Positions 4,683 to 30,027 of a DNA stretch of 64,000 nt are shown piece by piece (the first letter of the stretch is position 1; each line of letters begins with the position of its first letter). The notes under the pieces are model-generated. The model saw nothing but the letters and a program-made list of their open reading frames with translations, ran no database searches and had not been told where the DNA came from. The stretch covers positions 27,391 to 91,390 of the forward strand of contig NZ_CADIJR010000017.1 of assembly GCF_902859645.1 (NCBI RefSeq), written 5' to 3'. The DNA is from Achromobacter insuavis (GTDB lineage Bacteria > Pseudomonadota > Gammaproteobacteria > Burkholderiales > Burkholderiaceae_B). A program made the position numbers and the translations under genes.

Positions 4683-4691
4683 TCCCGCCCC

Positions 4692-5822: not shown

Positions 5823-7130
5823 ATGAATGAAGCGCCGGCTGACGATCCCCCCGCATCCCTCCCCCGATTCCTGCTCGCCATCCTCCTGACCGGCCTGACC
5901 GCCGGCCTGGGCGGCATGCTGCTGGGCATGTTGCTGCACGCCGTGCAGCACCTGGCGTACGGCTACAGCCTGGACCGCATCGTCGGGACCGAAACCTTCC
6001 TCCAGGGCGTCGAAGCCGCCAGCGACGTCCGCCGCCTGGCGGTGTTGATGCTGTGCGGCCTGGTGGCCGGCGGCGGCTGGTGGCTGGTCTACCGCTTCGG
6101 ACGGCCGCTGGTCAGCGTGACACAGGCGGTGCAGGACCCCGCCGCCCGCATGCCGGCCAGGACCACCCTGGCGCATGCCCTGCTGCAGATCGTGACCGTC
6201 GGGCTGGGATCGCCCCTGGGGCGCGAAGTGGCGCCGCGCGAGGTCGGCGCGCTGGCGGCCGGCGGCGTATCGGCATGGCTGCGCCTGCCGCCCGACCAGC
6301 GCCGGTTGATCGTCGCGTGCGGCGCGGGCGCGGGCCTGGCCGCCGTGTACAACGTGCCGCTGGGCGCGGCGCTGTTCGTGCTGGAAGTATTGCTGGGCAC
6401 GTTCGCGTGGCCCGCGGCGGCCGTGGCACTGGCCACATGCAGCATCGGCGCCGTCGTCGCCTGGATCGGGCTGGGCAACGAAATCCAATACGCGGTGCCG
6501 CCGATGACGGCGGGCGCCAGCCTGATCGTCTGGGCGGTGCTGGCCGGGCCGGTCTTCGGCGTGGCGGCGCACGCTTTCGTGCAACTGACATCGGCCGCGC
6601 GGCGCCAGGCGGCGCGCGGCTGGCGGCTGCCGCTGGCGGCACTGGTGAACTTCACGCTGATCGGCGTCCTGGCGGTCTTCCTGCCGGCGCTGCTGGGCAA
6701 CGGCAAGGGCCCGGCCCAGCTGGGCTTCAGCAGCGAACTGACCCTGGGCATGGCGGCCCTGCTGCTGGTGTTGAAGGTGGCGATCACCAGCGGTTCGCTG
6801 CGCGCCGGCGCGTCCGGCGGCCTGCTGACGCCGGGCATCGCCATCGGCGCCCTGCTGGCGGTGGTGCTGGGCGGCGCCTGGAACCTGATCTGGCCCGACG
6901 CGCCGCCCGGCGCCTACGCCGTGGTGGGCGCGGCGGCCTTCCTGGCGGCCTCGATGCGCATGCCGCTGACGGCCACCGTCCTGCTCCTGGAATTCACGCG
7001 CGTGGACCAGGGGTTCCTGGTGCCGATGATCCTGGCGGTGGCCGGCGCCACCGCCACCCACCATTTTTGCGCGGCCCGGACCGCCCGGACGCCGGCAGCG
7101 GCTGGCGCGCCGCTGCGCGGCTCGACATGA
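5823..7130 (+). CDS. ClC family chloride channel/antiporter
   Basis: This 435-residue, roughly 10-12-helix membrane protein contains GSPLGREVAPREVGAL (about residues 123-138). This corresponds to the ClC filter segment GREGP, here altered to GREVAP as in one bacterial subgroup. Further motifs are AGAGLAAVYNVPLGAALFVLE and GASGGLLTPGIAIGALL near the C-terminus. No CBS domains follow. It lies 10 bp upstream of the YdeP-type oxidoreductase, suggesting co-transcription. ClC antiporters support acid tolerance in some bacteria; transport direction and stoichiometry here are unknown. Confidence 0.88.
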   Translation: MNEAPADDPPASLPRFLLAILLTGLTAGLGGMLLGMLLHAVQHLAYGYSLDRIVGTETFLQGVEAASDVRRLAVLMLCGLVAGGGWWLVYRFGRPLVSVTQAVQDPAARMPARTTLAHALLQIVTVGLGSPLGREVAPREVGALAAGGVSAWLRLPPDQRRLIVACGAGAGLAAVYNVPLGAALFVLEVLLGTFAWPAAAVALATCSIGAVVAWIGLGNEIQYAVPPMTAGASLIVWAVLAGPVFGVAAHAFVQLTSAARRQAARGWRLPLAALVNFTLIGVLAVFLPALLGNGKGPAQLGFSSELTLGMAALLLVLKVAITSGSLRAGASGGLLTPGIAIGALLAVVLGGAWNLIWPDAPPGAYAVVGAAAFLAASMRMPLTATVLLLEFTRVDQGFLVPMILAVAGATATHHFCAARTARTPAAAGAPLRGST

Positions 7131-7140
7131 AGAGGCTCAC

Positions 7141-9408
7141 ATGACATCACGCAACCTGACCGGCATCCAACGCTACGACGCGCCCGCCGGCGGCTGGGGC
7201 GCGCTCAAGGCCACCGCGCAAGCCATCGCGGACCAGATGCGGATCGCCGAGGCGCCGGTGCTGCTGTTTCGCACCAACAAGCCCGACGGTTTCGACTGTC
7301 CCGGCTGCGCGTGGCCGGACAAGGCCCACACCTCGACCTTCCAGTTCTGCGAAAACGGCGCCAAGGCCGTGACCTGGGAAGCCACCAAGAAACGCGTGAC
7401 GCCGGAATTCTTCGCCGCGCACACCGTGACCGAGCTGCTGACCTGGTCCGATCACGACCTGGAAGACGCCGGCCGGCTGACGCACCCGCTGCGCTACGAT
7501 GCCGCCACCGACACCTATCAGCCGATTGAATGGGACGCCGCGTTCCAGCACATCGGGCGCACCCTCGCCAACCTGTCCGATCCGGATTCGGTCGAGTTCT
7601 ACACCTCGGGCCGCGCCTCGAACGAAGCGGCGTTCCTGTTCAGCCTGTATGCCCGCGAGTACGGCACCAACAATTTCCCCGATTGCTCGAACATGTGCCA
7701 CGAGGCCACCAGCGTCGGGCTGCCGCAGACCATCGGCATCGGCAAGGGCACGGTATCGCTGGACGACTTCGACGCCTGCGACCTGATCATCTCGATGGGC
7801 CACAACCCCGGCACGAACCATCCGCGCATGATGGGCACGCTGCACGAATGCGCCCGCCGCGGCGTGCCCATCATCGTCTTCAACCCGCTGCGCGAGCGCG
7901 CGCTGGAACGCTTCGCCGATCCGCAGAACCCGATCGAGATGGGCACGCTGGGCTCGACCCGCATCGCGTCCACGTACTACCAGGTGCGCGTGGGCGGGGA
8001 CGCCGCCGCGCTCAAGGGCATCATGAAGGCGCTGCTGACGCTGGACCGGCAGGCGCCCGGCGCGATCGACCACGCCTTCATCGCCGAACACACCCACGGC
8101 TTCGACGCCTACGTCGCGGACCTGGACGCCACCGCGTGGGCCGACATCGAGTGCGCCAGCGGGCTGACGCGCGCCAACCTGGAGCAGGTCGCCGCGGCCT
8201 ACGCCAAGTCCAACGCCACCATCGTGACCTACGGCATGGGCATCACCCAGCACGCGCGCGGCACCCAGAACGTGCAGCAGATCGCCGCGCTGCTGCTCAT
8301 GCGCGGCAACTTCGGCCGGCCGGGCGCCGGCATCTGCCCGCTGCGCGGCCACTCCAACGTGCAGGGCAACCGCACCGTCGGCATCACCGAGAAGATCGAC
8401 CCGGTGATGTTCGACAACATCGAGAAGACCTTCGGCTTCCGGCCGCCCGAGCGCCACGGACACGACGCGGTCGACGCCATGAAGGCGATGGTGAACGGCG
8501 ACGCCCGCGTGCTGATCTGCCTGGGCGGCAATATCGCCATGGCGCTGTCCGACACCGAACAATGCGAGACGGGCATGCGCCGGCTGGACCTGGCGGTGCA
8601 CATGAACACCAAGCTGAACCGCTCGCACCTGCTGATCGGCCGCGACGCCATCATCCTGCCGGTGCTGGGCCGCACCGAAAGCGACGTGCAGGCCAGCGGC
8701 GCGCAATCCATCACCGTCGAGGACTCGATGTCGATGGTGCACGCCTCGCGCGGCAAGCTCGCGCCGGCCTCCGAACACCTGCGGTCCGAACCCGCCATCA
8801 TCGCCGGCATGGCGGCGGCGACGCTACCGGACACGCGCGTGCCGTGGCTCCACCTGGTCGAGGACTACAGCCGCATCCGCGACCTGATCGAAAAGGTCTA
8901 CCCGGACTTTCGCGGCTACAACGAACGCATCCTCAAGCCGGGCGGATTCCGCCTGCCGCTGCCGCCCACCGAACGCATCTGGAAAACGAAGTCGGGCAAG
9001 GCCGAGTTCCTGCCGTTCAAGGGCCTGCAAGAGGATCCGGGCGCGGTCGCGGCGGGCGCGCTGACGTTGACCACGCTGCGCAGCCACGACCAGTACAACA
9101 CCACCATCTACGGCCTGGACGACCGCTATCGCGGCGTGTTCGGCCGGCGCGACGTGCTGTTCATGCATGCCGACGACCTGGCGCGCCACGGCCTGAAGCA
9201 CGGCGACAAGGTGGACCTGCACAGCGGCCTGCCGGGCCAGGCGCACCGCCACCTGCAACTGACCGCGATCGCCTACGACATCGCGCCCGGCTCGGTCGGC
9301 GCCTACTACCCCGAGGCCAACAACCTGTGCCCGCTGGACTACCAGGACAAGCAGAGCGGCACGCCCAGCTACAAGTCGATTCCGGTGGTGATCAGGAAGG
9401 CCGCGTGA
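7141..9408 (+). CDS. YdeP-type molybdopterin oxidoreductase (FdhF family)
   Basis: This 755-residue member of the DMSO-reductase superfamily is about the length of E. coli YdeP. It has DCPGCAWPD near the N-terminus (C53, C56) rather than a full 4Fe-4S motif. The segment NMCHEATSVGL places C186 where formate dehydrogenase H has its selenocysteine/Cys Mo ligand. Cofactor-binding motifs such as SMGHNPGTNHPRMM and RGHSNVQGNRTVG follow, and a molydop-binding domain forms the C-terminus (about residues 640-755). Substrate is unknown; YdeP is associated with acid resistance in E. coli. It is probably co-transcribed with the ClC gene. Confidence 0.88.
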   Translation: MTSRNLTGIQRYDAPAGGWGALKATAQAIADQMRIAEAPVLLFRTNKPDGFDCPGCAWPDKAHTSTFQFCENGAKAVTWEATKKRVTPEFFAAHTVTELLTWSDHDLEDAGRLTHPLRYDAATDTYQPIEWDAAFQHIGRTLANLSDPDSVEFYTSGRASNEAAFLFSLYAREYGTNNFPDCSNMCHEATSVGLPQTIGIGKGTVSLDDFDACDLIISMGHNPGTNHPRMMGTLHECARRGVPIIVFNPLRERALERFADPQNPIEMGTLGSTRIASTYYQVRVGGDAAALKGIMKALLTLDRQAPGAIDHAFIAEHTHGFDAYVADLDATAWADIECASGLTRANLEQVAAAYAKSNATIVTYGMGITQHARGTQNVQQIAALLLMRGNFGRPGAGICPLRGHSNVQGNRTVGITEKIDPVMFDNIEKTFGFRPPERHGHDAVDAMKAMVNGDARVLICLGGNIAMALSDTEQCETGMRRLDLAVHMNTKLNRSHLLIGRDAIILPVLGRTESDVQASGAQSITVEDSMSMVHASRGKLAPASEHLRSEPAIIAGMAAATLPDTRVPWLHLVEDYSRIRDLIEKVYPDFRGYNERILKPGGFRLPLPPTERIWKTKSGKAEFLPFKGLQEDPGAVAAGALTLTTLRSHDQYNTTIYGLDDRYRGVFGRRDVLFMHADDLARHGLKHGDKVDLHSGLPGQAHRHLQLTAIAYDIAPGSVGAYYPEANNLCPLDYQDKQSGTPSYKSIPVVIRKAA

Positions 9409-10703: not shown

Positions 10704-11186
10704 ATGCGCAAATTCGCGGAGCTATACGAACAGAATCATTCCTGGCTGAAGGCTTGGCTCAGAAAGCGCCTTGGCAACCCGGACACCGCCGCCGACCTGG
10801 CACACGATACGTTCGAACGCGTATTGACCAAGCCTCCCGCCGAGGAACTGAACGAGCCTCGGGCCTACCTCACCGTGGTCGCCAAGGGCCTGGTCGCGCA
10901 TTGGTATCGCCGCAAGGCGATCGAGCAAACGTACCTGGATGCACTCGCGCTTGAACCCGAAGACTACGTTCCTTCAGTCGAGTCCCAGGCGGAAATCCTG
11001 GAGCGCCTGTTCGAGATCGATGCCATGCTGAGTAAACTTCCGGGCAAGGCCCGAGAGGCCTTTCTGATGTCCCAGGTCGATGGACTGACCTACCAGGAAA
11101 TTGCCGACAAGCTGAACGTATCGCTTAGCACCGTGAAGCGTTACATGGTGATGGGTTTCGCTCAATGCCTGGCCACTCTGACATGA
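10704..11186 (+). CDS. FecI-like ECF sigma factor (cassette 1)
   Basis: This 160-residue extracytoplasmic-function sigma factor has region 2 in NPDTAADLAHDTFERVL and a region 4 helix-turn-helix in MSQVDGLTYQEIADKLNVSLSTVKRYMV. It should direct RNA polymerase to iron-uptake genes after a signal relayed by FecR from the TonB receptor. The chosen ATG gives the normal FecI N-terminus (FAELYEQNHSWLKAWLRKRLG). The stop overlaps the FecR start (ATGA). No clear Fur box is visible upstream, unlike cassette 2. Confidence 0.9.
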   Translation: MRKFAELYEQNHSWLKAWLRKRLGNPDTAADLAHDTFERVLTKPPAEELNEPRAYLTVVAKGLVAHWYRRKAIEQTYLDALALEPEDYVPSVESQAEILERLFEIDAMLSKLPGKAREAFLMSQVDGLTYQEIADKLNVSLSTVKRYMVMGFAQCLATLT

Positions 11187-12142
11187 CACAAGCAACGACC
11201 CGAGCCAACCTGATCCAGGAAGCGGCGACCTGGATGATGCGGCTTTCCGACGAAGGCGCCACCGAGGCCGACTGGACGGCCTGGCGTCAATGGACGCAGC
11301 AAAGCGACGAACACCGCAAGTACGCGCACCTGACGGAATCGCTGACGGCGAAGCTGCAGACCGTGCCGGGAAGCGTCGGCCGCGCTGCGTTGAACGCGCC
11401 CAAGGCCGCGGCAAGACGGACGGCGCTCAAGACACTTGCGTTCCTTTTGCTGGCCGCGCCGACGGGCTACGTGGTCACCCGCCTGCCCTGGCAAGCCTGG
11501 AATGCCGAGTACCGCTCCAGCACCGGCGAACAGCGCCTGATCGCGCTGCCGGACGGCGGCACCTTGACACTGGACACCGCCAGCGCGGCCAATGTCGTCT
11601 ACGACGATCAGCGTCGCAGCGTGCAAGTCGTGGCGGGCAGGGCCTACATCGTCACGGCCGCCGACAGCGCCCAGCCGCCCCGGCCGTTCCTGGTACAGAC
11701 CCGGTTTGGACAGGTGCGCGCCCTGGGCACACGTTTCGAAGTGCAGTTGGGCGACCGCGAAGAGCAGGTCGCCGTTTTCGAGGGCGCGGTGGAGATCACG
11801 CCGAAAGATTCCGCGACCTCGGCACAGGTTCTGCAGGCCGGATGGAAAACGACGTTCACGCGGAACCAGGTGCAACCGGCGGCGCGTTCACTCTCTCAGG
11901 CCGATCCGCTCTGGCTGCAAAAGCGCATCCAGGTCGACAACGTGCCGCTGGGACAATTGATCGAGGAACTGGGACGCTACCGGCCGGGCATCCTGCGCTG
12001 CGACCCCGACGTGGCGGCGCTGCCCGTTTCGGGAACGTACCGCCTGGACGATACGGACCTTGCGTTGCGGTTGCTGGCCGAGGCGCTGCCGGTCCGCGTC
12101 ACGCGGCGCACCGCCTACTGGGTCACGGTCGGTCCCCGCTAG
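11183..12142 (+). CDS. FecR family anti-sigma/sigma regulator (cassette 1)
   Basis: This 319-residue inner-membrane signal relay protein has an N-terminal DUF4880 cytoplasmic region (EAATWMMRLSDEGATEADWTAWRQW). One membrane helix lies at about residues 81-100, followed by a periplasmic FecR domain (STGEQRLIALPDGGTLTLDTASA...). The C-terminal part (LIEELGRYRPG) resembles an STN-like contact domain. The start at 11183 overlaps the fecI stop by 4 bp; an in-frame ATG at 11165 would lengthen it slightly. Confidence 0.88.
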   Translation: MTQATTRANLIQEAATWMMRLSDEGATEADWTAWRQWTQQSDEHRKYAHLTESLTAKLQTVPGSVGRAALNAPKAAARRTALKTLAFLLLAAPTGYVVTRLPWQAWNAEYRSSTGEQRLIALPDGGTLTLDTASAANVVYDDQRRSVQVVAGRAYIVTAADSAQPPRPFLVQTRFGQVRALGTRFEVQLGDREEQVAVFEGAVEITPKDSATSAQVLQAGWKTTFTRNQVQPAARSLSQADPLWLQKRIQVDNVPLGQLIEELGRYRPGILRCDPDVAALPVSGTYRLDDTDLALRLLAEALPVRVTRRTAYWVTVGPR

Positions 12143-12153
12143 GCCGAGGCCGC

Positions 12154-14481
12154 ATGCGTTCCTGCCGGCCCGCCGCGGCACTGCCACCCTTGAGGCTACC
12201 GCTGAGGCGGGTCCTGCTCGCCAGTTTCCTGGCGACAGCCTGTGCCCTGCCAGCCATCGGTCACGCCCAACCGCGAGCGGCCATCCCTGGGCCTGCGGTC
12301 TTTTCCATTCCCGCCGGGCCGCTGTCGGCCGCGCTGGATCGATTCGCCAATGCCGCCGATCTCTCCCTGTCCTACGATCCCGCGCTGATACGGGACAAGC
12401 ACAGCCCTGGCCTGTCCGGCGCCTACACCGTCGATGCGGCGTTCGCGGAATTGTTGCGCGGTACCGGCCTGACCGCGACGGCATTGGGACAGGCCGGCTA
12501 TGTATTGCGGACCACCGCAGCGGCAAAGGACGGCGTTTCGGGGGCTGCCACGTTGCGTCCGGTGCAGGTCGAGGGCATTCCGCCTGAAGAAGGCTATGCC
12601 GCGTCGACAAGCACTCTGGCCACCGGAACCGACACGCCGATCAAACAGATCCCCCAATCCATCCACATACTGACCCGGCAGATCATCGAAGACCAGCAGC
12701 CCCAGACGCTCTTCGATTTGCTGCGCAACGTGCCGGGCGTCAGCAACAACCCGCAGTTCTACGGCTTTGACAACGACGCCTACGACATGCGCGGCTACGG
12801 CTCGCGCCTTCTGCTGGACGGCATCGCGCCACAGTTCGGCTTCCGTATCCCCGCCATCGGCGTGGAACGGGTGGAAGTGCTCAAGGGCATTGACTCGGCG
12901 GCGATGGGCGATATCACCCACGGCGGCGTGGTCAACGTCATGCTGAAGCGCCCGCAGGCCGAGTCCGTCCGGGAAATCCGCGCGGAGGCCGGATCCCGGG
13001 GCCGCGCGGGAGTGTCGATGGATGTCGCCGGCACCGCGCCCGACAACACCCGCCTGCAGTACCGCCTGATTCTTTCGACCACCCGGGCGGACGGCAATAC
13101 CGCGGGGTACCGGGGGTTGCGTGAAACCTACCTTGCTCCCTCTGCCGCGTGGGACGACGGTACGACGCGCATCGAACTGGGCCTGCAGTATTCGCAGGGC
13201 CGCCTGCCGACAAGCCCTTTCACGGTCACGGTGAACGGACGCCCGGCCACGTTGTCCGGCCCTATCGCCAACGCGGATGATCACACGAACTACGAACAAA
13301 CCCGCCCATACTTCGCACTGCGCCAGCAACTGAACGACAACTGGTCTTTCAACGGCAGCGCCAGCGTCACCCGGCAGCGCCATACGGAATACGCCTACCG
13401 GCTGGGGCCCGCCAATCCGCAGGGCGGGGCCTACTACCTGCCATTCCGCGAGGACAGCAGCCAGCGCAACACCGTCGTCGACGGCCATCTGCAGGGCAGG
13501 TTCGACACCGGCCGCGCCACCCACGACGTCACGACCGGCCTGTCCTATTACGCAAGCTCGGTCGACACCACGATCGCGTCGGGGGATCTTTTCCCGGGCA
13601 ACGTCTTCTCCCCCCGGGTCCCGTTCCCGTCTTCGGACATCACGCCCAATATCGAGCGCCTGTCCAATTCGCCGCTGCGCTCCTCGCGCGCCTATGCCCA
13701 GGATTTCATGACCCTGGACAAGCGCTGGCATGTGATGGCCGGGATTGCGCTGAATCAATTGCCGCAAGAGGGCGGACCGACCGAGCGCGCCTGGACGCCA
13801 AAGCTGGGCCTGAGCTTCGACGTCTCAGACACGATGTCGCTCTACGGCGCGTACTCGCGCGGCTTCTCCACCTACCAGCCCGCGGCGCAAGGCACCGCGA
13901 GCGTACGGCCCATCCGCAGCAAGACCCTCGAAGCGGGAATGAAGTTCGACTGGCCCGACCGCCCGCTCAACGCGTCCATTGCCCTTTTTCAGACATCGCT
14001 CGACCATTACCTCGAACCCATACCGGACTCTCCCCTGTACCGACAGGTTGACAGCGGCAGAAGCCGAGGATTGGAACTCAGCCTGCAGGGTCAATTGACG
14101 GCAGCCTGGCAAACCGTCGCCAGCTATACGTACACGGACTTCCGGCCCGCGGCCAACCAGGTGAATCCCATACCCAGGCACATGGCCAGCCTGTGGGCCA
14201 AATACACGTTCCTGGACCCGGCCTGGAGCGGTTGGGGTCTGGGCGCCGGCGTGTATGTACAGAGCGGATATGCCGGCGACGGCCAGGGATTCGGCGACTT
14301 CCGCATCGCGGGGCAGGCCCGCACCGATGTCAGTCTGTTCTACCGTCGCGACCGTTTCAGCGCCACCCTGGGCGTGCGAAACCTGTTCGACCGGACCCTG
14401 TACGCCGGCCATGCCGTGGCCACACGCATCTACCTGGATCCAGGGAGAACGGTGCTGCTGACAACGGCCTACCGGTTCTGA
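12154..14481 (+). CDS. TonB-dependent siderophore receptor with STN signalling domain (cassette 1)
   Basis: This 775-residue outer-membrane receptor has a signal peptide of about 38 residues and an N-terminal STN domain (about 48-125; IPAGPLSAALDRFANAADLS). A plug follows (TPIKQIPQSIHILTRQIIEDQ, LRNVPGVSNN), then a 22-strand barrel ending in aromatic F (TTAYRF). The STN domain implies that ligand binding is signalled to FecR. It lies 11 bp after fecR, so the three genes form one operon. The siderophore is unknown; homology is to ferric-hydroxamate/pyoverdine-type receptors. Confidence 0.9.
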   Translation: MRSCRPAAALPPLRLPLRRVLLASFLATACALPAIGHAQPRAAIPGPAVFSIPAGPLSAALDRFANAADLSLSYDPALIRDKHSPGLSGAYTVDAAFAELLRGTGLTATALGQAGYVLRTTAAAKDGVSGAATLRPVQVEGIPPEEGYAASTSTLATGTDTPIKQIPQSIHILTRQIIEDQQPQTLFDLLRNVPGVSNNPQFYGFDNDAYDMRGYGSRLLLDGIAPQFGFRIPAIGVERVEVLKGIDSAAMGDITHGGVVNVMLKRPQAESVREIRAEAGSRGRAGVSMDVAGTAPDNTRLQYRLILSTTRADGNTAGYRGLRETYLAPSAAWDDGTTRIELGLQYSQGRLPTSPFTVTVNGRPATLSGPIANADDHTNYEQTRPYFALRQQLNDNWSFNGSASVTRQRHTEYAYRLGPANPQGGAYYLPFREDSSQRNTVVDGHLQGRFDTGRATHDVTTGLSYYASSVDTTIASGDLFPGNVFSPRVPFPSSDITPNIERLSNSPLRSSRAYAQDFMTLDKRWHVMAGIALNQLPQEGGPTERAWTPKLGLSFDVSDTMSLYGAYSRGFSTYQPAAQGTASVRPIRSKTLEAGMKFDWPDRPLNASIALFQTSLDHYLEPIPDSPLYRQVDSGRSRGLELSLQGQLTAAWQTVASYTYTDFRPAANQVNPIPRHMASLWAKYTFLDPAWSGWGLGAGVYVQSGYAGDGQGFGDFRIAGQARTDVSLFYRRDRFSATLGVRNLFDRTLYAGHAVATRIYLDPGRTVLLTTAYRF

Positions 14482-14518: not shown

Positions 14519-17134
14519 TCACTCGCAGCGACTGTCTACGGCCGTCCACATCCGCGCGGCCGGCGCCGGCGGCGTCGCCGGCAACGTCACCGCCAGGCGG
14601 CATTGGCCGCCCTCGCCTTGCGCCCAGACGACCCGGTACGTCGACGCCCCCGCCGCCGCGTTGCGCAGCAGCAGCCGGCCGGCCTGCGCCACCGTGCCGA
14701 CGTCGTTGCCCGCCGAGTCGACGACCCGTGCGCCGAACGGCACCGGGTCGCCGCCGGACAACCGCGCCCGCACCAGCACGGCCTGGCCGCCGCCCTCGGT
14801 CTCGAACGTCACCGGCACGACCGCGCCCGCGGTCGGCGCCACGTGCTGAATGGTCGACTTCAGCGCCACGCTCAAGGGCAGGCCCTTGGGATCGACTTCG
14901 ATTTCATTGCTGGCGAACGGTGTCAGATTGGAGACGACCGCGCGGCCCCAGGGATCGATGCGCAACCCGCTGCCGCTGGCCACCCGCGCGCCGGCGGCAT
15001 GCCGGGCTTCGACCACGACGGCGGTATCGCCCAGCGCGGGCGTGAATACGACGCCACCGCCATATGCCACCACGCCTCCCGACACCGTGGCGCCATACTG
15101 CGAGAACCCGCGTCCGCCCGATGCATTTGCCGCCATGGTGGCGTAGGGCGATGCGTAAGCCGCGCTGCCCCCCGCCACGGAGGACGCTGCCGCCCCCCCC
15201 AGGCTGCGACTCGCATTCACGCCATAGGTCAGGGCGCCGTCCTCGCCCGTCGCCCCGGTGACCGACTGTTGAACATCGGTGCGGCCGCGGAAATTGTTCT
15301 GCACGTTCGTCGAGGCATACAACTGCCGTGCGCCGCTGCCGATGGGGATGCCGATATTGAGCATCGCCACGTTGTCCCAGCGCTGCGATGAGGCATCGTA
15401 CTGACGGGCAAGCGACAGGCCGGCGCTGACCCGGCCGATGCTGGTGCTGTAGCCCGCCTGGAACTGCGTGTCCCGGCCCGGGCGGTTCCAGTAGTCCTGC
15501 GAAGACCCGCTCAGGTAGAAAGATCCCCAGCCCGACGGCAGCTGCTGATTCACCGTCAATTGCAGACGGCCGCGCAGGAATCCCCCGGTCGGATTGCCGC
15601 CGGAGAGACTGTCGGCGCTGTCGCGGCGGGCGTCGCGGTCGCCGTGGCGCAGCGACATCGCATCGCGCAGGTCGAGATAACCGCGGCTGGAGTAACGGTA
15701 GGCCGCCACGGTGATGTTGGTGTCGGTCGGCGCGATCAGCTTGCTATACGACAAGCGCACGCTGTGACCGGATCGCTTTCCTTGCGCGCCCAGCTCGGCG
15801 CGCGACTGCGTCGCGTCCAGGCCCACCGCGCCCCACTCCAGGTTCAACGCCACGCCGGCCATGCCCGCGGCGTAATCGCGGCTGGCGATCACGCCGCCAT
15901 AGCCCGTCAGCATGTTGGTGAATCCGTGCTGCAGCGTGGCCTGCATCACATAGGGCCGATCGCCTCGCATCAAGGGATCCCGGTACGCGCCCGCCACCAA
16001 CCCGTAACGGGTCACGCCGGGCCGCAAGGCATTCACCGCCGCCGCATAAGGCACGCTCGCCTGGTGCACACTGCCATCCGCCTCCGTGACCTCGACGATC
16101 AACTCGCCGCCATATCCCATCGGATACAGGTCGTCGATGACGAAAGCCCCCGGCGCCACGTTGGTTTCATAGATGACGCTGCCGTTCTGCCGCACGCGCA
16201 CCACGGCATTGCTGCGCGCGATACCTGTCACGCGGGGCGCATAGCCGCGCTGGCTCTGCGGCAACATCCGGTCATCGGTCGACAGTTGCACGCCGCGAAA
16301 GCCGAAACTGTCGAACAGCGCGCCGTCCGTGTACGCGTCACCCATCACCAACTGGCTGCCCATCGACCGGATCGCGCGCTGCACGTTCGTCTGCACGCTT
16401 CGATAGCGCGAATCCGCGGCGGAGCCGGTCGTCAGGTTGCCGCTATGGCGCAGGCGCCAGGGCCCGGCGTTCAACCCGCCGGACAGTCCCAGGTATCCCT
16501 GCGACACCGCATGCCCCTGCTGGTCGGACCGGAAATAGTTGGCGTTGTACTGCAACAGGCCGGCGGGCACGCCGTCCGTCCAATAGCGCGGGTCGATGTA
16601 GCCGCGCGGCTGGCGCTTCATCGCCGCCTGCGGGACCGTCACGTCCAGCCGCTGCTCGCCCGTATCGAAGGCCGCCGTCGCGCCGGGCACCCAGGCATCG
16701 ACCGGCGCACAGGCCTGCGGCGTCTCCCTGCCCGGCGCCGCAGCCGGAATCGCGCCGCCCGCCCGCGCGTCAACCGCATTCAAATCGACGCCGGCGCGCT
16801 CGAGCAGCTCCCGATCAAAGCAGGGCAGCGCATTGCCGTGGCGAGCGCCGACCGGCTTGAGCGTGACCTGGACGCTCCCCAACTGCATGCCATTGACGGA
16901 AAGATCCGCTCGATACGTACCCGGCGCGGCGACGTTGCCGCGGTTGTAGCGGGCCAGGTCCACGGGCGCGCCGCGGTTCACGAGGAACTGCGGATTGAAT
17001 TCCACCTCGGCCATCTGCATGGGTTCGCCCTCGGCCGCCCCGAACGCTTGCGCGGTTGCCAGAGCCAGCAGGGCCGCCAGGCGGCATGGGTGCGGCACGC
17101 GCCGCGCGTCATTCTGTGTTTTTCTCGTTTTCAC
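14519..17134 (-). CDS. Fimbrial outer-membrane usher (FimD/PapC family)
   Basis: This 871-residue usher has an N-terminal signal and an NTD beginning VEFNPQFLVNRGAPVDLARYNRGN. The central barrel includes the FGFRGVQLSTDDRMLPQSQRGYAPRVTGIARSNA motif. The plug region is YETNVAPGAFVIDDLYPMGYGGEL, and C-terminal domains include LPFGARVVDSAGNDVGTV. The start codon is GTG at 17132-17134. It secretes and polymerises subunits delivered by the chaperone encoded just upstream. It is the last gene of the minus-strand fimbrial cluster. Confidence 0.92.
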   Translation of the reverse strand: MKTRKTQNDARRVPHPCRLAALLALATAQAFGAAEGEPMQMAEVEFNPQFLVNRGAPVDLARYNRGNVAAPGTYRADLSVNGMQLGSVQVTLKPVGARHGNALPCFDRELLERAGVDLNAVDARAGGAIPAAAPGRETPQACAPVDAWVPGATAAFDTGEQRLDVTVPQAAMKRQPRGYIDPRYWTDGVPAGLLQYNANYFRSDQQGHAVSQGYLGLSGGLNAGPWRLRHSGNLTTGSAADSRYRSVQTNVQRAIRSMGSQLVMGDAYTDGALFDSFGFRGVQLSTDDRMLPQSQRGYAPRVTGIARSNAVVRVRQNGSVIYETNVAPGAFVIDDLYPMGYGGELIVEVTEADGSVHQASVPYAAAVNALRPGVTRYGLVAGAYRDPLMRGDRPYVMQATLQHGFTNMLTGYGGVIASRDYAAGMAGVALNLEWGAVGLDATQSRAELGAQGKRSGHSVRLSYSKLIAPTDTNITVAAYRYSSRGYLDLRDAMSLRHGDRDARRDSADSLSGGNPTGGFLRGRLQLTVNQQLPSGWGSFYLSGSSQDYWNRPGRDTQFQAGYSTSIGRVSAGLSLARQYDASSQRWDNVAMLNIGIPIGSGARQLYASTNVQNNFRGRTDVQQSVTGATGEDGALTYGVNASRSLGGAAASSVAGGSAAYASPYATMAANASGGRGFSQYGATVSGGVVAYGGGVVFTPALGDTAVVVEARHAAGARVASGSGLRIDPWGRAVVSNLTPFASNEIEVDPKGLPLSVALKSTIQHVAPTAGAVVPVTFETEGGGQAVLVRARLSGGDPVPFGARVVDSAGNDVGTVAQAGRLLLRNAAAGASTYRVVWAQGEGGQCRLAVTLPATPPAPAARMWTAVDSRCE

Positions 17135-17216
17135 GGCAATCCGCCATCGACAGGACGCACGGCTCCCCGACGCGCCGACAGCGCGCCGTGATCCGACATC
17201 AATCAGGGAAAAAGGA

Positions 17217-17969
17217 TCAGTGCATGACGCGGGGCCGCGTCGAGGCCTCGCCAGTAACGAGGCCGCCGTAATCGTTCACGACTTCGTAGCGCACCTGGAC
17301 GCCCGCCGGCGCCGTAAGCCTGCCCTTGAGCGGCACCCGGCGCGTTTCGCCCGGCGCCACCATCAGGCCGTCATCGAACAAGGCCTTTTCGCCGCCAGCG
17401 GCGGCCTGGATCGTCGTGAACGTCACGTGATAGGCGCTGGGGTTGTGCACGCTCAGCACATAGCCGCCGGCCTCGCCATCGAGCGACCACACCGCTTGCG
17501 CCGGCGCATCGACCGCCTGCCCCGGCAACTGGCCAGGCCGGAAGAACACTTTGATCCGCGAGCGGAACGCGAACTGCAGATGATTGGCGGTCTGCGCATC
17601 CGACGGCTTCGGCGGAATCTCCAGCACGTTGAGCCAAAAGACGGACTCCCGGTCCTGCGGCAACGGTTCCCCGGTATAGGCCACGCGCAACGTCTGGCCT
17701 TTCTCGGGATCGATGCGCGATACGGGCGGTGTTATCAGGAATGGCGCGCTGGCCTCGGACGGTGCGGCGTCCGCATCGCCGCTATCGGCCCAGACCTGCA
17801 CCAACGCGGGGGTCTTGCCTTCGTTGGACAGCTTGACGGTGACCTCCTGGTCGCCCGCCGGATAAACGACACGCGTGCCCGAGATCACGACGGACGCCAC
17901 GGCCGGAATACTGATCGAGGCCAGCGCAGCGGCGGCGAAGGCCAACGAACGGAACAGAAAAGTACGCAC
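17217..17969 (-). CDS. Periplasmic pilus-assembly chaperone (PapD family)
   Basis: This 250-residue PapD-like protein has a signal peptide ending ISIPAVAS and two Ig domains. Domain 1 shows the family signature GTRVVYPAGDQEVTVKLSNEGKTPALVQVW. It also has FLITPPVSRIDPEKGQTLRV and FWLNVLEIPPKP, which include the conserved subunit-binding strands. Domain 2 runs from about residue 145 to the end. It binds fimbrial subunits by donor-strand complementation and hands them to the usher encoded 82 bp downstream. Confidence 0.92.
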   Translation of the reverse strand: MRTFLFRSLAFAAAALASISIPAVASVVISGTRVVYPAGDQEVTVKLSNEGKTPALVQVWADSGDADAAPSEASAPFLITPPVSRIDPEKGQTLRVAYTGEPLPQDRESVFWLNVLEIPPKPSDAQTANHLQFAFRSRIKVFFRPGQLPGQAVDAPAQAVWSLDGEAGGYVLSVHNPSAYHVTFTTIQAAAGGEKALFDDGLMVAPGETRRVPLKGRLTAPAGVQVRYEVVNDYGGLVTGEASTRPRVMH

Positions 17970-18037
17970 GATTTCTCAACTCTTTTCGTCTTGGAGGACC
18001 ATGCCGGCGCAGCGCCCGCCGCGCCGGCGCGCCCGCC

Positions 18038-18574
18038 TTACTGATAGGCCAGCGTGTACGTGACCGTGGTGGTGACCGGGCCGGCATCCACCGCGCCCGC
18101 CGCGAAGTACTGGGCAACGTACGACAGCGTGGCGCTGCCGCCGGTGAGGTTGACCGGCGCGCTGTTCTGCGCCGCCGCGGCCGCGCCGACAACAATGGGC
18201 GTGTTGTCCCCCTTGTTCAGCAACTGCACCTCGACGTTGGCGGCGCCGCCCGCGGCCGTGTTCTTCAGATTGCCGTTCGGGCGTACCGTGCTGCCGGGCT
18301 CGAAATACGTCGACACCTTCGTGGCGGAGCCGGTACAGTTGGTCAGCGAAATGCTGAACGCCGTGGGCCCGGCGGTCGCGCCCGGATTGGCCAGGCGCGT
18401 CTTCGACACGGAAGGCAAGGTCACCGTGAAATCGCCATTGTCCTGGCCGTTGATCTTGCAGGTGGTGTCCGTGATCGAACCGTTGAACGTGATCGTGCCG
18501 TCGACGGCGAACGCCGATTGCGATGCCAGCGCGCCGACAGCCAGGAACAGAGCGGAATAAAGAGAAGTCTTCAT
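18038..18574 (-). CDS. Major fimbrial subunit (FimA family)
   Basis: This 178-residue pilin has a signal peptide ending SQSAFA and a mature start of VDGTITFNGSITDTTC, typical of type-1-like fimbriae. The two cysteines lie in DTTCKIN and LTNCTGS and should form the subunit disulfide. The C-terminus TVTYTLAYQ has the penultimate tyrosine recognised by chaperone and usher. The start at 18574 was chosen for the signal peptide; an upstream in-frame ATG at 18679 would add unlikely residues and run through the 34-bp element at 18655-18688. Confidence 0.9.
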   Translation of the reverse strand: MKTSLYSALFLAVGALASQSAFAVDGTITFNGSITDTTCKINGQDNGDFTVTLPSVSKTRLANPGATAGPTAFSISLTNCTGSATKVSTYFEPGSTVRPNGNLKNTAAGGAANVEVQLLNKGDNTPIVVGAAAAAQNSAPVNLTGGSATLSYVAQYFAAGAVDAGPVTTTVTYTLAYQ

Positions 18575-18654
18575 ATCAATGAGGGATAGTGAGCCAGGAG
18601 AGGAGAGAACCGGGCAGCGCTCCCGTGTCGCTGCTTCTGCGTTGCAGGTTCTGT

Positions 18655-18688
18655 CTGGTAGGCCACTTGAGCCGATCAAAAAGGCTCA
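18655..18688 (-). promoter_or_regulatory. Shared 34-bp element, copy A (upstream of fimbrial subunit)
   Basis: Read on the minus strand this is TGAGCC-TTTTT-GATCGGCTCA-AGTGGCCTACCAG. It matches copy B (19950-19983) at 27 of 34 positions without gaps and ends 80 bp before the subunit ATG. This copy also has perfect TGAGCC/GGCTCA arms around a 9-bp spacer. It probably binds a regulator or is part of a promoter common to the fimbrial genes and the EAL gene. Confidence 0.6.
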
Positions 18689-18765
18689 GACTCGAACGGA
18701 TTAATTTGTAACGGCCATCGCGCCCAGCGTTCGCCGCGCGAAATGGCCGGCCGCCCCCGGGCGGC

Positions 18766-19875
18766 TTAACGGTAAAGCAACGTGAAAATCAGCGTGCCGT
18801 TCGCAGTCCCTGGCTTGATAGCCGCCCCTGTCTGGACATAGGACGCATAAAAGTCCGCACTGTAGGAGCCGCCCGTTGCCGGCGCGTACTGGGCGACTTC
18901 ATACCCAGGCGCTCCGAACGCCATCGGCTTGCCATTCGACACGCTGACGAGCTTGAGCCCCAGCCCCTGCGCCGTCGACTCCGCGCTCAGGGCGATGACG
19001 CCGTTGTTGGCGTCAACGACGCCCGATGGCGCGCTGAATTGCAGCCCGATGCGCTGCAGCCCGGCAGGGCAGTTATTGATGGGGACCGAGAATTTGACCC
19101 TGGGGGTCTCCGAGCCGACCCCCTTGAACGACTTCGTTGTGTACTGGCCCAGCGGCACGGTCACGTTCGACGTGGTGCAACTCTTCACGGAGACGGCTAC
19201 GGCGTTGACCCGAAAAGACGCATTGGGCCCCGGGCTGACGATGGGGTTGTTAATGTCGGCCCCTCCCATGATGGGGCGCGTCAGCAGCACGTCGCCGGGC
19301 AGGGAGACCATGCCCGGCTGGATATCTCCGGTTTTGACCAACATGGCGGTCATCGCATTGAAGCCGTACGGTTGCCGGCCATTGTTGTCCGGACCGGCGC
19401 AGGTCCGCCATCGCGATCCGCCGTTTCCCGTCATATCCACCCGTCCGGCCGGCGGTTGCGGGCCGCAGCCCCCGACGACAAACTGCCCGGAGAACGCAAT
19501 GCCGACCCCTGGCAGGTTGGTCGCATGGACCTTGTAGGTCCCGCCGCCATTGGCGGGGTTCTGAACCGTCACGTTGGTCTGTGTCAGCCCCACGATGCGG
19601 ATGTCGATGCCCGCGACCGAATTGGCCGTGATATCGCACGCATAGATGGTGTTCATTCCCGTCCAATCGGCCGTCGCCAGCAGCGTTCCCACCGGCGCAT
19701 CGCGGGGCACCGAGATCGCGCTGGGAAACGTCACTGAAAAGAGTCCGCCATTCGCGAGCGTGCACGTCGTTACGGCACCTGCCTGTAACGGCGCGCCGAA
19801 GAAAAGGATGATGGCCAGCGCCGCAAGCCAGCGCAACGGCGCGGCACGGGGTGGCAGAAGCGGGGTACTGAACAT
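18766..19875 (-). CDS. Fimbrial tip adhesin/minor pilin
   Basis: This 369-residue secreted protein has a signal region ending PLQAGA and a two-domain layout as in tip adhesins. A unique cysteine-containing N-terminal domain (about 37-210) includes CGPQPPAGRVDMTG and RTCAGPDNNGRQ. A pilin-like C-terminal domain (about 220-369) starts at VKSCTTSNVTVPLGQYTTKSFKGVG and ends TLIFTLLYR. It is encoded upstream of the major subunit instead of at the end of the operon. The receptor it binds is unknown. Confidence 0.82.
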   Translation of the reverse strand: MFSTPLLPPRAAPLRWLAALAIILFFGAPLQAGAVTTCTLANGGLFSVTFPSAISVPRDAPVGTLLATADWTGMNTIYACDITANSVAGIDIRIVGLTQTNVTVQNPANGGGTYKVHATNLPGVGIAFSGQFVVGGCGPQPPAGRVDMTGNGGSRWRTCAGPDNNGRQPYGFNAMTAMLVKTGDIQPGMVSLPGDVLLTRPIMGGADINNPIVSPGPNASFRVNAVAVSVKSCTTSNVTVPLGQYTTKSFKGVGSETPRVKFSVPINNCPAGLQRIGLQFSAPSGVVDANNGVIALSAESTAQGLGLKLVSVSNGKPMAFGAPGYEVAQYAPATGGSYSADFYASYVQTGAAIKPGTANGTLIFTLLYR

Positions 19876-19949
19876 GGATTGCCCTCTTGGCGACGCTTTG
19901 AAATCAGTGGAATCGCGACCCGGTCGGAAGTGCTTTCGAGCCGCTTGCC

Positions 19950-19983
19950 CTGGGATGCCACTTGAGACGCGAAAAAAGGTTCA
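19950..19983 (-). promoter_or_regulatory. Shared 34-bp element, copy B (upstream of adhesin)
   Basis: On the minus strand it reads TGAACC-TTTTTT-CGCGTCTCA-AGTGGCATCCCAG, ending 74 bp before the adhesin ATG. The distance and orientation mirror copy A relative to its gene. The constant parts are CCTTTTT, CTCAAGTGGC and CCAG. TCAAGT resembles a -35 of sigma-28-type promoters, but no GCCGATAA is found at the proper spacing. Confidence 0.6.
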
Positions 19984-20063
19984 TTGCGCGCCCACATCGA
20001 ACGCGCCCGCCTCCCGCAGGACCCGAGCCGATTTATCTGGTTACATATTTTTCGGCAAAAGCA

Positions 20064-20097
20064 CGGACCTTTTCGTTGCGCTGAAGTGGCATACCCG
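20064..20097 (+). promoter_or_regulatory. Shared 34-bp element, copy C (upstream of EAL gene)
   Basis: On the plus strand it reads CGGACC-TTTT-CGTTGCGCTG-AAGTGGCATACCCG. It aligns ungapped with copy B at 22 of 34 positions, including ACCTTTT and AAGTGGCAT, and similarity continues downstream (GG..AAGC.GC). It ends 40 bp before the EAL gene ATG and points at that gene. Copies B and C are therefore back to back in the adhesin-EAL intergenic region. Confidence 0.55.
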
Positions 20098-20137
20098 GAG
20101 AAGCCGCACCGCGGTCCACTACAAGCGAAAGGAAATC

Positions 20138-21523
20138 ATGGCGACGAAGTCCCGCCCAATCTCAAGAACACCGCGCCAAGGCGCTTCCGTCGACCGGCGT
20201 CATGAGACCTTCGGCCGCCAGAAAGAACCCGTGCCCGACCTCCTCGCAGCCGGGCAAGCCGCCATGCGCCCCACCGATGGCAATCCGTCGGCGATCCTGC
20301 TTGCGCCCTATACGGCGGTGCGCGCGGCGTGCATCTATATTGACGGCCTGCCCGATCTGTTCGCGGCCTACGGCACTGCCTGCGTGCAGCGAGCCATCGA
20401 TCGTGCATTGCCCGAACGGCTGGCCGCCATCGGCATTGACGCCCATCGCATTGCACGTATCGGTCAACATGCCGTTGTCACGCTGGCGGACCACGCGCCG
20501 CCCTGCTCGCCCGACGATGATGTGCTGCTTGAGCGGATCAAGGCGGCCGTCTCCTGCGAGCCGCTGGAGTGCGAAGGTCACCGCATCCTGCTCAAGGTAC
20601 TGGTCACCCTGGGGGTGCCCGAGACCTGTCTGGAGGCGTCTCCGTTCGATACGGCGCGCTATCCCGCTCACGCCTGGCCCCCGCTGCCGGAAACCACCCA
20701 ATCCCTGAACGCGCGGCTCACGGCGTTTCGCAACGACATGGACATGGCGACGGCGTTCTTCGACGATGTCCATTCCGGCCATGTCACCCTGGCCTTCCAG
20801 CCCGTCATCGTGTCGTCGAGCCTCCGGGTGCCGCTCTACCACGAAGCCCTGCTGCGTCGCATCGACGGCAACACCGCCACGACTTGCTATCCCGTCATCC
20901 AGGCGCTGGAACGGCTGGGCCTTGTCGCCCGACTGGACCGCAGCGTGCTTTGGACCGCCATCGGCCTGCTTGAACGCCACCCGGATATCTGCCTGGGAGC
21001 CAACGTATCGGCGCTGTCCTTGCAGCACGACGGTTGGTGGCGCGTCCTGCAGGATTATCTGGCGAGAAATCCCGGGATCGCCGAGCGCCTGACGCTCGAA
21101 ATCACCGAGACCAGCGCCATCACCAACGCCGAAGAGGCGGCCAATCTGTTGTTGTCATTGCGCGTGATGGGCTGCCGGATTGCCCTGGACGACATGGGCG
21201 CCGGCTACAGCACCATCAGCTTCCTGGCCGCAACGCGCCCGAATATCGTCAAGATCGACAAGACCTTCGTGACCCAGACGGAAGGCAAGCGCCAGCCCCA
21301 GACGCTGCTCAAGCACTTCGTGACACTGTGCTCGGACCTGAGCGCATGCGTCATCGCGGAAGGCATCGAAACCGAAGCTGACGTCGCCGCCGCCACGCAG
21401 GCGGGCGTGCACGCGCTGCAGGGCTACCATCTGGGACGCCCGGAGTTGGCGCCCGCGTGGCTGGTCGGGCCGGCCTGTGTCAAGGACAGCTTCGCGCACG
21501 ACCATCGGACCTGGCAGGCATGA
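20138..21523 (+). CDS. EAL-domain c-di-GMP phosphodiesterase
   Basis: This 461-residue cytoplasmic protein probably hydrolyses cyclic di-GMP to pGpG. The EAL domain (about 203-445) keeps the expected catalytic residues: EAL at 236-238, N289, E321, DDMGAGYS (D351, D352), K372, AEGIE (E408) and QGY (Q428). Residues about 55-165 look like a degenerate GGDEF-like fold without a GGDEF or RxxD motif. No membrane segment is seen. The start has a strong GAAAGGAAA ribosome-binding site. It is divergent from the fimbrial genes and shares their 34-bp element. Confidence 0.88.
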   Translation: MATKSRPISRTPRQGASVDRRHETFGRQKEPVPDLLAAGQAAMRPTDGNPSAILLAPYTAVRAACIYIDGLPDLFAAYGTACVQRAIDRALPERLAAIGIDAHRIARIGQHAVVTLADHAPPCSPDDDVLLERIKAAVSCEPLECEGHRILLKVLVTLGVPETCLEASPFDTARYPAHAWPPLPETTQSLNARLTAFRNDMDMATAFFDDVHSGHVTLAFQPVIVSSSLRVPLYHEALLRRIDGNTATTCYPVIQALERLGLVARLDRSVLWTAIGLLERHPDICLGANVSALSLQHDGWWRVLQDYLARNPGIAERLTLEITETSAITNAEEAANLLLSLRVMGCRIALDDMGAGYSTISFLAATRPNIVKIDKTFVTQTEGKRQPQTLLKHFVTLCSDLSACVIAEGIETEADVAAATQAGVHALQGYHLGRPELAPAWLVGPACVKDSFAHDHRTWQA

Positions 21524-21617
21524 AATTGAATGAGCGCCGACAACCAGGTGGGCGGTGGAATCGTGCGGCGATGGGCTCCGCCCCCCCGTGGCGGCGCGGG
21601 AGAGATGTCTTGTCTTT

Positions 21618-21753
21618 ATGTATGGTTTTTTTGCTGCAAAATCTCTCTCAGAAAGACATACAAATCAAACGATTCAAGCATTTGTATGGATAGCTGAGGT
21701 AGAATTTCCATTCTTGTATGGGATTTTTCTATAAAATCTGCCTTCTTGTATGG
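21618..21753. repeat. Phased 32-bp degenerate direct repeats (TTGTATGG array)
   Basis: The octamer TTGTATGG occurs at 21682, 21714 and 21746, exactly 32 bp apart. A variant ATGTATGG lies at 21618, exactly 64 bp before the first. Unit ends also match: AAAATCTCTCTC, GAATTTCCATTC and AAATCTGCCTTC. The unit at 21650-21681 is poorly conserved. Spacing close to three helical turns would put all octamers on one DNA face. The stretch is AT-rich relative to its surroundings and lies about 90 bp before the microprotein at 21845. Confidence 0.65.
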
Positions 21754-21844
21754 AAATGGGCGCTCGCCGCGCCCGATGTGCCTGGATGCGCAGAGGCCGG
21801 CCCACAGGTCGTAAACAATGCTGCTGAAGCAGCGTTTTGAGGAA

Positions 21845-21994
21845 ATGATGAATTTTTGGGTCCCCGTAATCTTCGGTACGTTCAAGCTCCTCGTGTTGGG
21901 CACGGGCATGTTCCTCGCCATCAAGTCGCATTACGACGGAGAAAAGAAGGACAAGGAAAAGCAGAAGGCGCAAGAGGAGACGAAGGCTCCGTAG
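21845..21994 (+). CDS. 49-residue single-span membrane microprotein
   Basis: A short open frame encodes 49 residues: MMNFWVPVIFGTFKLLVL, the rest of a hydrophobic helix to about residue 27, then a highly charged Lys/Glu tail (DGEKKDKEKQKAQEE). GAGG lies 3-6 bp before the start ATGATG. The hydrophobic-then-charged layout suggests a real small inner-membrane protein with a cytoplasmic tail. I do not recognise a named family. It is preceded by the 32-bp repeat array and a small hairpin (GCTGCTGAAGCAGC at 21820-21833). Confidence 0.6.
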   Translation: MMNFWVPVIFGTFKLLVLGTGMFLAIKSHYDGEKKDKEKQKAQEETKAP

Positions 21995-22240
21995 TGGAGA
22001 GCTGGATGCTGCCGGGGACGTCCCGATCGAGACGCTCGATGCGGCCATCATGCGCGAACGTCATTGACGGAATGGAATTTGATGCGGATACACGCTAGCC
22101 CCCCGCAATGGCAGTCGGCATCTGGGCGGAAGCGCGCTTTCTAGGCGGATGGAGAAACTGGACGAACAGTTCTGCGAAGCGGCAGCATGAGACCGTCCAT
22201 TGCGTTGAAGAGGATAACGATTGTAAGTCGCTGCGGGACG
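21995..22240. other. Intergenic stretch without a convincing gene
   Basis: About 250 bp between the microprotein and the 3' end of the DUF4272 gene. Short open frames here lack a ribosome-binding site and recognisable composition, and their ends run into the opposite-strand gene. I see no RNA gene or strong terminator. Confidence 0.4.
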
Positions 22241-23119
22241 TCAGGTATTTACAGGCACGTCGTCCCACGACTCGCCGTAGCCCACCATCCAGCTCAATGC
22301 ATAGCGGCGCTCCGTGACCACGCCAGCGTCCAGGTGGGCGGGGGTGGGTCGACCGCGCAGTTGTGCGTCGTGCACGTGCCAGTGCTCATCCTGCAGTCGG
22401 TGTTCCTCGTCCGCCACCTCATCGAGTGACCGCAGACACGCATTGGCGACGAAGTCGGCCGGAGCGGCTTTGGCCACTTGCACCAGCGGGATCGCCCAGA
22501 TGTCCGCACGCTGGCAAGACGGCGGCAGCTCAGGCATGCCGCCCAGGGCCCACGCCAGCGGCACGATGGCCTCGGCGCGCCAACTGAAATTCACAAGGTC
22601 CTGATGCGCAGGCCGCTGCGCTTGTCCCAGGTAGAGGGCTTCTGCCGGGGAAAGCAATGCGATGACATCGTTTTGCTCGGCCCAGGCAATGCCTTCCACC
22701 GCAACGTCTTCACGTTCATCGGCACGCCACACCACGGCGATCAATGCCAGCAGTCGCTGCGCCACTTGCTCTGCGGTGCGGAACTCCGGTTCACGCCATT
22801 GACTCACTGGCGGCGGGCTCAACAGATTCCGCAACGATTTCTCGATGATCAGGTCGCGTTCATCGGGCCTCTTCTGGCAGACGGAGAAGAGAATGAAAAG
22901 AGGCCATCGCCACTTGCGGCCCGCGCCGTCCGTCCACACGATCCGTGAGTGCGTTGGGTCGCCGTACCAAACGCCCCGGACGCGAGGGCGGCGGGCATCG
23001 GGCACATGCCGGCCCACGGCCAGCAGACAATCCTTGCTGAACGCGATCAAGTCATTCTTGATGGCGTTCCGTTCGTTCTGCCGATCCCACCAGCGACGGA
23101 AAATATTGGGGGTTCTCAT
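22241..23119 (-). CDS. DUF4272 domain-containing protein
   Basis: This is a 292-residue cytoplasmic protein with no signal or membrane segment. The C-terminal half (about 120-290) fits DUF4272: RTAEQVAQRLLALIAVVWRA, WRAEAIVPLAWALG and the ending TERRYALSWMVGYGESWDDVPVNT, where RxYALxWxxG...WDDVxxxT is the family trademark. Function is unknown. The N-terminal 100 residues (RRWWDRQNERNAIKN...) are not recognised. It is isolated on the minus strand in a lower-GC stretch between the EAL gene and groES. Confidence 0.7.
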   Translation of the reverse strand: MRTPNIFRRWWDRQNERNAIKNDLIAFSKDCLLAVGRHVPDARRPRVRGVWYGDPTHSRIVWTDGAGRKWRWPLFILFSVCQKRPDERDLIIEKSLRNLLSPPPVSQWREPEFRTAEQVAQRLLALIAVVWRADEREDVAVEGIAWAEQNDVIALLSPAEALYLGQAQRPAHQDLVNFSWRAEAIVPLAWALGGMPELPPSCQRADIWAIPLVQVAKAAPADFVANACLRSLDEVADEEHRLQDEHWHVHDAQLRGRPTPAHLDAGVVTERRYALSWMVGYGESWDDVPVNT

Positions 23120-28399: not shown

Positions 28400-28933
28400 A
28401 TGTCCGGACCGAACGTCCTGCCGGCCTTCCACAGTCTTTATGCGGCGCATCACGGCTGGTTGCGCGCCTGGCTGCTGCGCAAGCTGAAATGCCGTTTCCA
28501 CGCCGAGGACATTGCCCACGACGCGTTCCTGCGCCTGCTGCGGCGTGGCGGCCTGGAAACTGCGGACCAGCCGCGCGCCCTGCTCGCCACCACGGCGAAC
28601 CGGCTGGTGATCGATGAACGGCGCCGCCGGGACATCGAACAGGCCTACCTGGCGCTGCACGCCGAGCAGCACGCAATGGCCACGGAGGCCTCAGCCGAAC
28701 AGGTCGCCATGGCCGTGCAGGCCCTGGCGGCGATCAGCCAGGCCATCGAGCGCCTGCCGCACAATGCGGCGCAGGCCTTTCTCATGAGCCTGTACGACGG
28801 CATGTCCCAACATGACATCGCGCGGGTCCTGCGGGTGTCGGAACGCTCGGTCAAGCTGTACATCGCCCAGGCCTTGCTGGCCTGCCACGACGTGCTGGCC
28901 GACTCGGCCCCACTCAGCGGCCATGCTGTTTGA
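28400..28933 (+). CDS. FecI-like ECF sigma factor (cassette 2)
   Basis: This 177-residue ECF sigma factor has region 2 at HAEDIAHDAFLRLLRRGG and region 4 at MSLYDGMSQHDIARVLRVSERSVKLYIAQALLAC. It should transcribe the receptor gene downstream when the siderophore is present. The stop overlaps the fecR start (ATG at 28923). The Fur-like site just upstream indicates repression under iron-replete conditions. Confidence 0.9.
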   Translation: MSGPNVLPAFHSLYAAHHGWLRAWLLRKLKCRFHAEDIAHDAFLRLLRRGGLETADQPRALLATTANRLVIDERRRRDIEQAYLALHAEQHAMATEASAEQVAMAVQALAAISQAIERLPHNAAQAFLMSLYDGMSQHDIARVLRVSERSVKLYIAQALLACHDVLADSAPLSGHAV

Positions 28934-29918: not shown

Positions 29919-30027
29919 CGCGGGCGACAACCGGATATCGGTATTCCGAACAAAGTTGTAACCGCCATTTCCCTTTTTGACGCGTGGCTCGTCATCTCCT
30001 CCATGCACAACCGCATGGAGCATTGCG

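Follow-up and report, generated by a model that had tools for sequence, protein, structure and literature searches.

A 34-bp element present in three copies in a fimbrial locus of Achromobacter insuavis is, judging by motif ranking, probably a promoter of the FecI-type ECF sigma class. The probability is put at about 0.68 that each copy is a core promoter for a sigma factor of this class, most likely for the FecI whose gene lies at 10704-11186 on the plus strand of the same window. The window is the whole stretch of 64,000 nucleotides that was analysed, from a genome of 6.82 Mb in 199 contigs. If this reading is correct, transducer signalling would directly control surface attachment and c-di-GMP, and the ligand of the transducer would be the next question. 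A fimbrial and c-di-GMP locus that had looked regulator-less would also gain a concrete candidate sensor, anti-sigma factor and sigma factor.

Copies A (18655-18688, minus strand), B (19950-19983, minus strand) and C (20064-20097, plus strand) stop 80, 74 and 40 bp short of the start codons (ATG) of fimA, an adhesin gene and an EAL gene, respectively. The sequences, strands, positions and distances given for them in an earlier note on this DNA were all reproduced, as was the agreement of A with B at 27 of 34 positions and of B with C at 22 of 34. In the same ungapped comparison A and C agree at 24 of 34. The best match to A elsewhere in the window is 21/34 and, as both A/B and A/C exceed this, the likeness of the copies is greater than chance; the best non-copy match to B (at 17186) reaches 22/34, equal to B/C. 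A point absent from the earlier note is the sequence GTTACA, which stands exactly 28 bp upstream of CCTTTT in copies A (18707-18712, minus strand) and C (20040-20045, plus strand). Inspection of the sequence upstream of copy B revealed no GTTACA.

The locus consists of fecI, fecR and a transducer gene on the plus strand (10704-14481), the usher, chaperone, fimA and adhesin genes on the minus strand (14519-19875) and the EAL gene on the plus strand (20138-21523). The proposed reader of A, B and C, FecI, has the ECF sigma factor domains Sigma70_r2 and Sigma70_r4_2. It is followed by the anti-sigma factor and sensor FecR (11165-12142, plus strand; FecR and DUF4880 domains) and by a TonB-dependent transducer with an STN signalling domain (12154-14481, plus strand; STN, Plug and beta-barrel). 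The domain content makes this a complete FecIRA cell-surface signalling set: an ECF sigma, an anti-sigma of the FecR type and a TonB receptor that carries STN at its N-terminus. Only 37 bp separate the cluster from the end of the usher gene, and the earlier statement that the regulator is not encoded next to the element is not supported.

On the minus strand lie the usher (14519-17134; Usher, PapC_N and PapC_C), the fimbrial chaperone (17217-17969; PapD_N and PapD_C), the fimbrial subunit FimA (18038-18574; FimA and Fimbrial) and a tip-adhesin-like fimbrial protein (18766-19875), presumably an adhesin, with a Fimbrial domain in its C-terminal half. The EAL gene (20138-21523, plus strand) encodes a predicted c-di-GMP phosphodiesterase (Pfam EAL, 153 bits). 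Its E-A-L, N, E, DD, K, EG(I/V)E and Q-G positions match those of the MucR EAL domain. These aligned positions include the catalytic residues, and the protein thus has an EAL domain with the residues of an active enzyme. The AT-rich stretch after this gene (21600-21760) contains several TTGTATGG-like repeats.

Hundreds of unrelated hits in the genome, seen beforehand as telling against a dedicated element, did not appear among exact matches. The core CCTTTT-N7-CTSAAGTGGC has 40 matches at up to three mismatches in the whole Achromobacter genome, whereas a backwards control pattern has 201 at the same tolerance. Three of the 40 are exact, and all of these are at this locus; none has one mismatch, two have two and 35 have three. 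One of the three-mismatch matches (C1:55533) is the FecI-type promoter of a paralogue (L223). The two-mismatch matches were judged to be chance: one is antisense in a CZB-like gene and the other lies between GMC-oxidoreductase-like and LysR-like genes (names read from translations). A search of 399 genomes of the order, a sample outside which A. pestifer falls, gave exact matches in the window's genome only and a single two-mismatch match in each of six others. Among 268 genomes of the family, exact matches were confined to the window's genome (three) and A. pestifer (one); the one-mismatch matches, one in each of 20 other genomes, were judged, without reference to their contexts, to be chance. 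When the pattern was extended to include GTTACA, the only exact matches in 43 congeneric genomes were at A, at C and at one site in A. pestifer. Three more, at three mismatches, were judged to be chance, the control pattern having given more.

A relative of the EAL protein at E ≤ 1e-30 was found in two of the 43 congeneric genomes besides the window's own. In one of them (G055), fimbrial genes of this kind are absent from the neighbourhood of the relative. In the other, A. pestifer LMG 3431 (G023, locus L128), fimA, chaperone, usher, adhesin and EAL genes form a single operon on one strand. The best match to the three-copy matrix in 19 kb of A. pestifer is TGAGCCATTTCCGATGGTTCGAGTGGCAAGCAGA, which ends 86 bp before fimA, is identical to A, B and C at 20, 19 and 17 of 34 positions, and has GTTACA at the identical 28-bp spacing. 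GTTACA is thus found 28 bp upstream of CCTTTT or CCATTT in three of the four promoters (A, C and the A. pestifer copy). The element is therefore kept before fimA in an orthologous locus, and this conservation supports the original proposal that a dedicated promoter-type element ties the fimbriae to a c-di-GMP phosphodiesterase. As A. pestifer has one operon with one copy and the window three units with three copies, it appears that a single promoter serves the unsplit operon and that, once the operon is divided, every unit carries a separate copy.

The FecI orthologue in A. pestifer is 69% identical and its gene is divergent from fimA; among the matches listed, those that score best in each of the remaining 41 genomes are at most 57% identical. 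The fecI-fecR-transducer cluster adjoins the fimbrial genes in both species (the STN match of the A. pestifer transducer, 27.2 bits, is slightly below the curated cut-off of 28.4), and, in the stretch from fecI to the EAL gene, no DNA-binding regulator other than FecI was seen in both. After the A. pestifer EAL gene there is a gene for an atypical OmpR-like response regulator (L128, 14677-15543), with a receiver match of 22.1 bits, below the Pfam cut-off of 30.2.

Conservation does not extend to all relatives of the fimbrial genes. In the stretches fetched, seven related fimbrial loci have neither the element nor the fecI cluster: two are congeneric (G020 and G014, both without an EAL gene) and five are from other genera (L129-L133, of which L129 has its own EAL gene). 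FecI-motif matches of 15-17 bits occur in L130 and L133, none of them before fim genes. The earlier note had held that loss of the element where the genes remain would speak against it; A. pestifer keeps it and these seven loci do not, so the element is not general to such fimbriae. The joint absence of cluster and element fits reading by FecI. In L129 (Paraburkholderia solisilvae, 3620-8294) an apparent histidine kinase, an OmpR-type regulator and a GGDEF-EAL protein, named from translations, precede the fimbrial operon. The EAL homologues of other genera showed no evident FecI-type site of at least 15 bits directly at the genes. Four EAL relatives in the same family (L108, L109, L111 and L112) lie beside large surface-protein-like genes and an opposite-strand resolvase-like gene. 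L109, the one of the four run through Pfam, has Autotransporter and Resolvase matches, and an OmpR-type Trans_reg_C protein is encoded between its EAL and autotransporter genes.

The assignment to the FecI class comes from a motif derived from other FecI systems of the same genome, which holds 38 FecI-like matches (3 to 31 per Achromobacter genome in 43 genomes at E ≤ 1e-25, among the matches listed). Thirty FecI loci were taken. Usable sequence from downstream of fecR came from 25 of them, and in 18 of these a TonB receptor was detected next; the fimbrial locus and its FecI were outside the training set. An EM search of these regions gave the 30-bp motif TTTTt.c..tCTCGTtCGGCaTa.cgGG, which provides a FecI-type promoter motif for Achromobacter, and 18 of the 25 regions score at least 15 bits. 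Downstream of fecR in one locus (L245) there is a long inverted repeat with AGGAGCCTCGC...GCGAGGCTCCT ends, resembling a small mobile element.

Over the 127,942 positions of the window, copy B ranks first (21.2 bits), A second (15.7) and C fourth (14.2). Rank 3 (15.5 bits, at 29974) is the training-set promoter of a second FecI system in the window, and after this region was dropped from the training A, B and C ranked 2, 1 and 3. The A. pestifer copy ranks first in its locus under the same motif. By the full 30-bp model, then, the element shares sequence with the promoters that follow fecR in other FecI systems of the genome, and the earlier remark that no known consensus was recognised is not supported. 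We infer a -35 box, TGARCCTTTT, and a -10 region, AAGTGGCAT: in copy A, the candidate promoter of fimA-chaperone-usher, these would be TGAGCCTTTT and AAGTGGCCT, in copy B (adhesin gene) TGAACCTTTT and AAGTGGCAT, and in copy C (EAL gene) CGGACCTTTT and AAGTGGCAT. The second FecI-FecR-TonB system includes 28427-28888 and has a FecI-type promoter at 29974-30003 between fecR and the receptor gene.

None of 12 shuffled and 30 random-region trainings put all three copies near the top. The best shuffle set ranked them 145, 136 and 6, and with random regions the worst rank of the three was at best 2322. When three of the 25 regions were left out (20 trials) the median ranks of A, B and C were 12, 1 and 9; two trials lost all three copies and two more lost A and C. 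The ranks depend on motif width, being 64/1/1005 for A/B/C at width 20, 27/21/968 at 24 and 4/1/12 at 27. Six training subsets of 12 regions spread the copies over ranks 1 to 2239. With regions from other genomes as the training set, A/B/C ranked 580/562/3305 (23 regions) and at best 205/60/74 (10 non-redundant regions), the EM search having locked onto orthologue-specific sequence or shifted register.

All four fimbrial copies have 18 nt between the point where the T-run begins and the GG of GTGGC, versus 16-17 nt in the paralogue promoters measured (a range taken without L220, about 16 by eye, and L239) and 16 nt in the closest paralogues. One extra spacer base, chosen after the sites had been seen, raises A, B and C to 22.1, 22.3 and 17.8 bits. 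Four untrained loci of the closest paralogues (56-58%) have top matches of 26-28 bits, of the form CTTTT-N5-CTC..CTGGCAT, lying 39 nt ahead of the ATG that opens a receptor frame of 803-804 aa. Likeness of a promoter to the fimbrial copies does not track the likeness of its FecI (Spearman 0.20, p 0.32, n 26; 0.26, p 0.29, n 19), and this comparison therefore does not single out which FecI acts. The controls were passed, but small or foreign training sets fail and the spacer is longer; the assignment to the FecI-type promoter class is thus fairly well supported, and that to an individual sigma less so.

A different FecI paralogue, or several, may then read these promoters, with the fimbriae answering to signals other than that of the neighbouring transducer. 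The 38 FecI-like matches offer many candidates, the most similar paralogue promoter (L223) goes with a FecI merely 51% identical, and the closest paralogues have the shorter spacer. The local FecI, however, adjoins the fimbrial genes in two species and its cluster is missing from the seven fimbrial loci that have no element, and we consider reading by other paralogues unlikely. It is quite improbable that the element serves, as operator or promoter, some regulator whose gene lies elsewhere, such as a response regulator of a two-component system acting at GTTACA, its likeness to FecI promoters being incidental. The equal spacing of GTTACA in A, C and the A. pestifer copy would suit such a regulator, as would the OmpR-like gene after the A. 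pestifer EAL gene and such genes by related EAL genes elsewhere, but copy B has no GTTACA and the FecI motif ranks the copies as described. The A. pestifer response regulator itself was rejected as the common regulator, as the genome of the window lacks an orthologue of it (best match 35% identical, E 9e-22, versus 4e-198 for the self match).

An RNA hairpin, a dyad operator or a DNA-inversion site would each make a very improbable explanation. Copy A and the A. pestifer copy can form six of six pairs between TGAGCC and GGCTCA (with a G-U pair in A. pestifer), but B retains four of the six and C two, and the best Rfam matches in 16500-22500 (E 0.74 and 2.5) are below gathering scores and away from the copies. 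Inversion is brought to mind by the resolvase-like gene near EAL relatives in other genera, yet the L109 resolvase has no match in the window and A. pestifer has one copy only. A sigma-70 promoter (TTGACA-N16-18-TATAAT-like) was also rejected: there is one site in 4.4 kb, at 18310, and none at the copies, while shuffles give 1.1. The sigma-54 and sigma-28 consensus sequences were also set aside, by visual comparison only.

Under the preferred reading, recognition by the local FecI, the transducer, with its periplasmic STN domain, would bind an outside signal and pass it to FecR, which would free FecI. RNA polymerase carrying FecI would start transcription of fimA-chaperone-usher, of the adhesin gene and, as a third unit, of the EAL phosphodiesterase gene, at points that are, like the signal, predicted. 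As the EAL protein keeps residues aligned with those of active enzymes, the regulon should lower c-di-GMP during fimbriation, and fimbriae would be made while c-di-GMP is lowered.

A FecI-type site before the system's own receptor was not found, scores reaching no more than 7.1 ahead of fecI and -5.4 where fecR meets the receptor gene. Leaving the fimA site aside, neither species showed one before fecI or the receptor gene. A weak receptor site could be missed, because 7 of the 25 training regions also score below 15 bits. A Fur box before fecI was considered and rejected (best 10/19; random windows average 9.6). As the receptor, unlike those of the paralogue systems, appears to have no such promoter, the fimbrial units are the visible targets. 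A broader picture, which we hold tentatively and at slightly less than even odds, is of a stand-alone surface-signalling module that visibly acts on adhesion instead of iron uptake. Its outer-membrane transducer would sense an outside ligand, FecI promoters would stand on the fimbrial, adhesin and phosphodiesterase units and not on its own receptor, attachment would be coupled to a drop in c-di-GMP, and the promoter would have been copied or kept for each unit as an ancestral single operon split.

Among literature titles, mostly outside subscription papers, none concerned FecI promoters at a fimbrial-phosphodiesterase locus. A precedent is Ecf7 of P. syringae B728a, a FecI-like sigma factor encoded with FecR and FecA-like genes, deletion of which lowers transcripts of the cupC chaperone-usher genes of the same region (PMC3597554). 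Ecf7, however, mainly drives its heme-type receptor and hemO, its fimbrial genes are about 24 loci away, and the accessible part of the report describes neither an EAL gene nor a shared promoter element (PMC3597554). Overexpression of the surface-signalling ECF sigma factor HxuI of P. aeruginosa likewise raises fimbrial cupE but, as far as the excerpted account goes, its regulon is broad, cupE does not adjoin hxuI and the reported motif is another (PMC8768829). Control of functions other than iron uptake by a transducer, anti-sigma and ECF sigma factor is described for PrhA-PrhR-PrhI of Ralstonia (PMC11925246) and VreA-VreR-VreI of P. aeruginosa, where the VreI targets adjoin its own genes (PMC2729926). 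In the sections available, these systems act on regulators of type III secretion, or on type II and two-partner secretion, in contrast to fimbriae with a phosphodiesterase (PMC11925246, PMC2729926). The type 3 fimbrial region of Klebsiella, like the present locus, includes a gene for an EAL phosphodiesterase, MrkJ, although control there is, in the portion of the paper at hand, through the c-di-GMP receptor MrkH and not a FecI system (PMC3161979).
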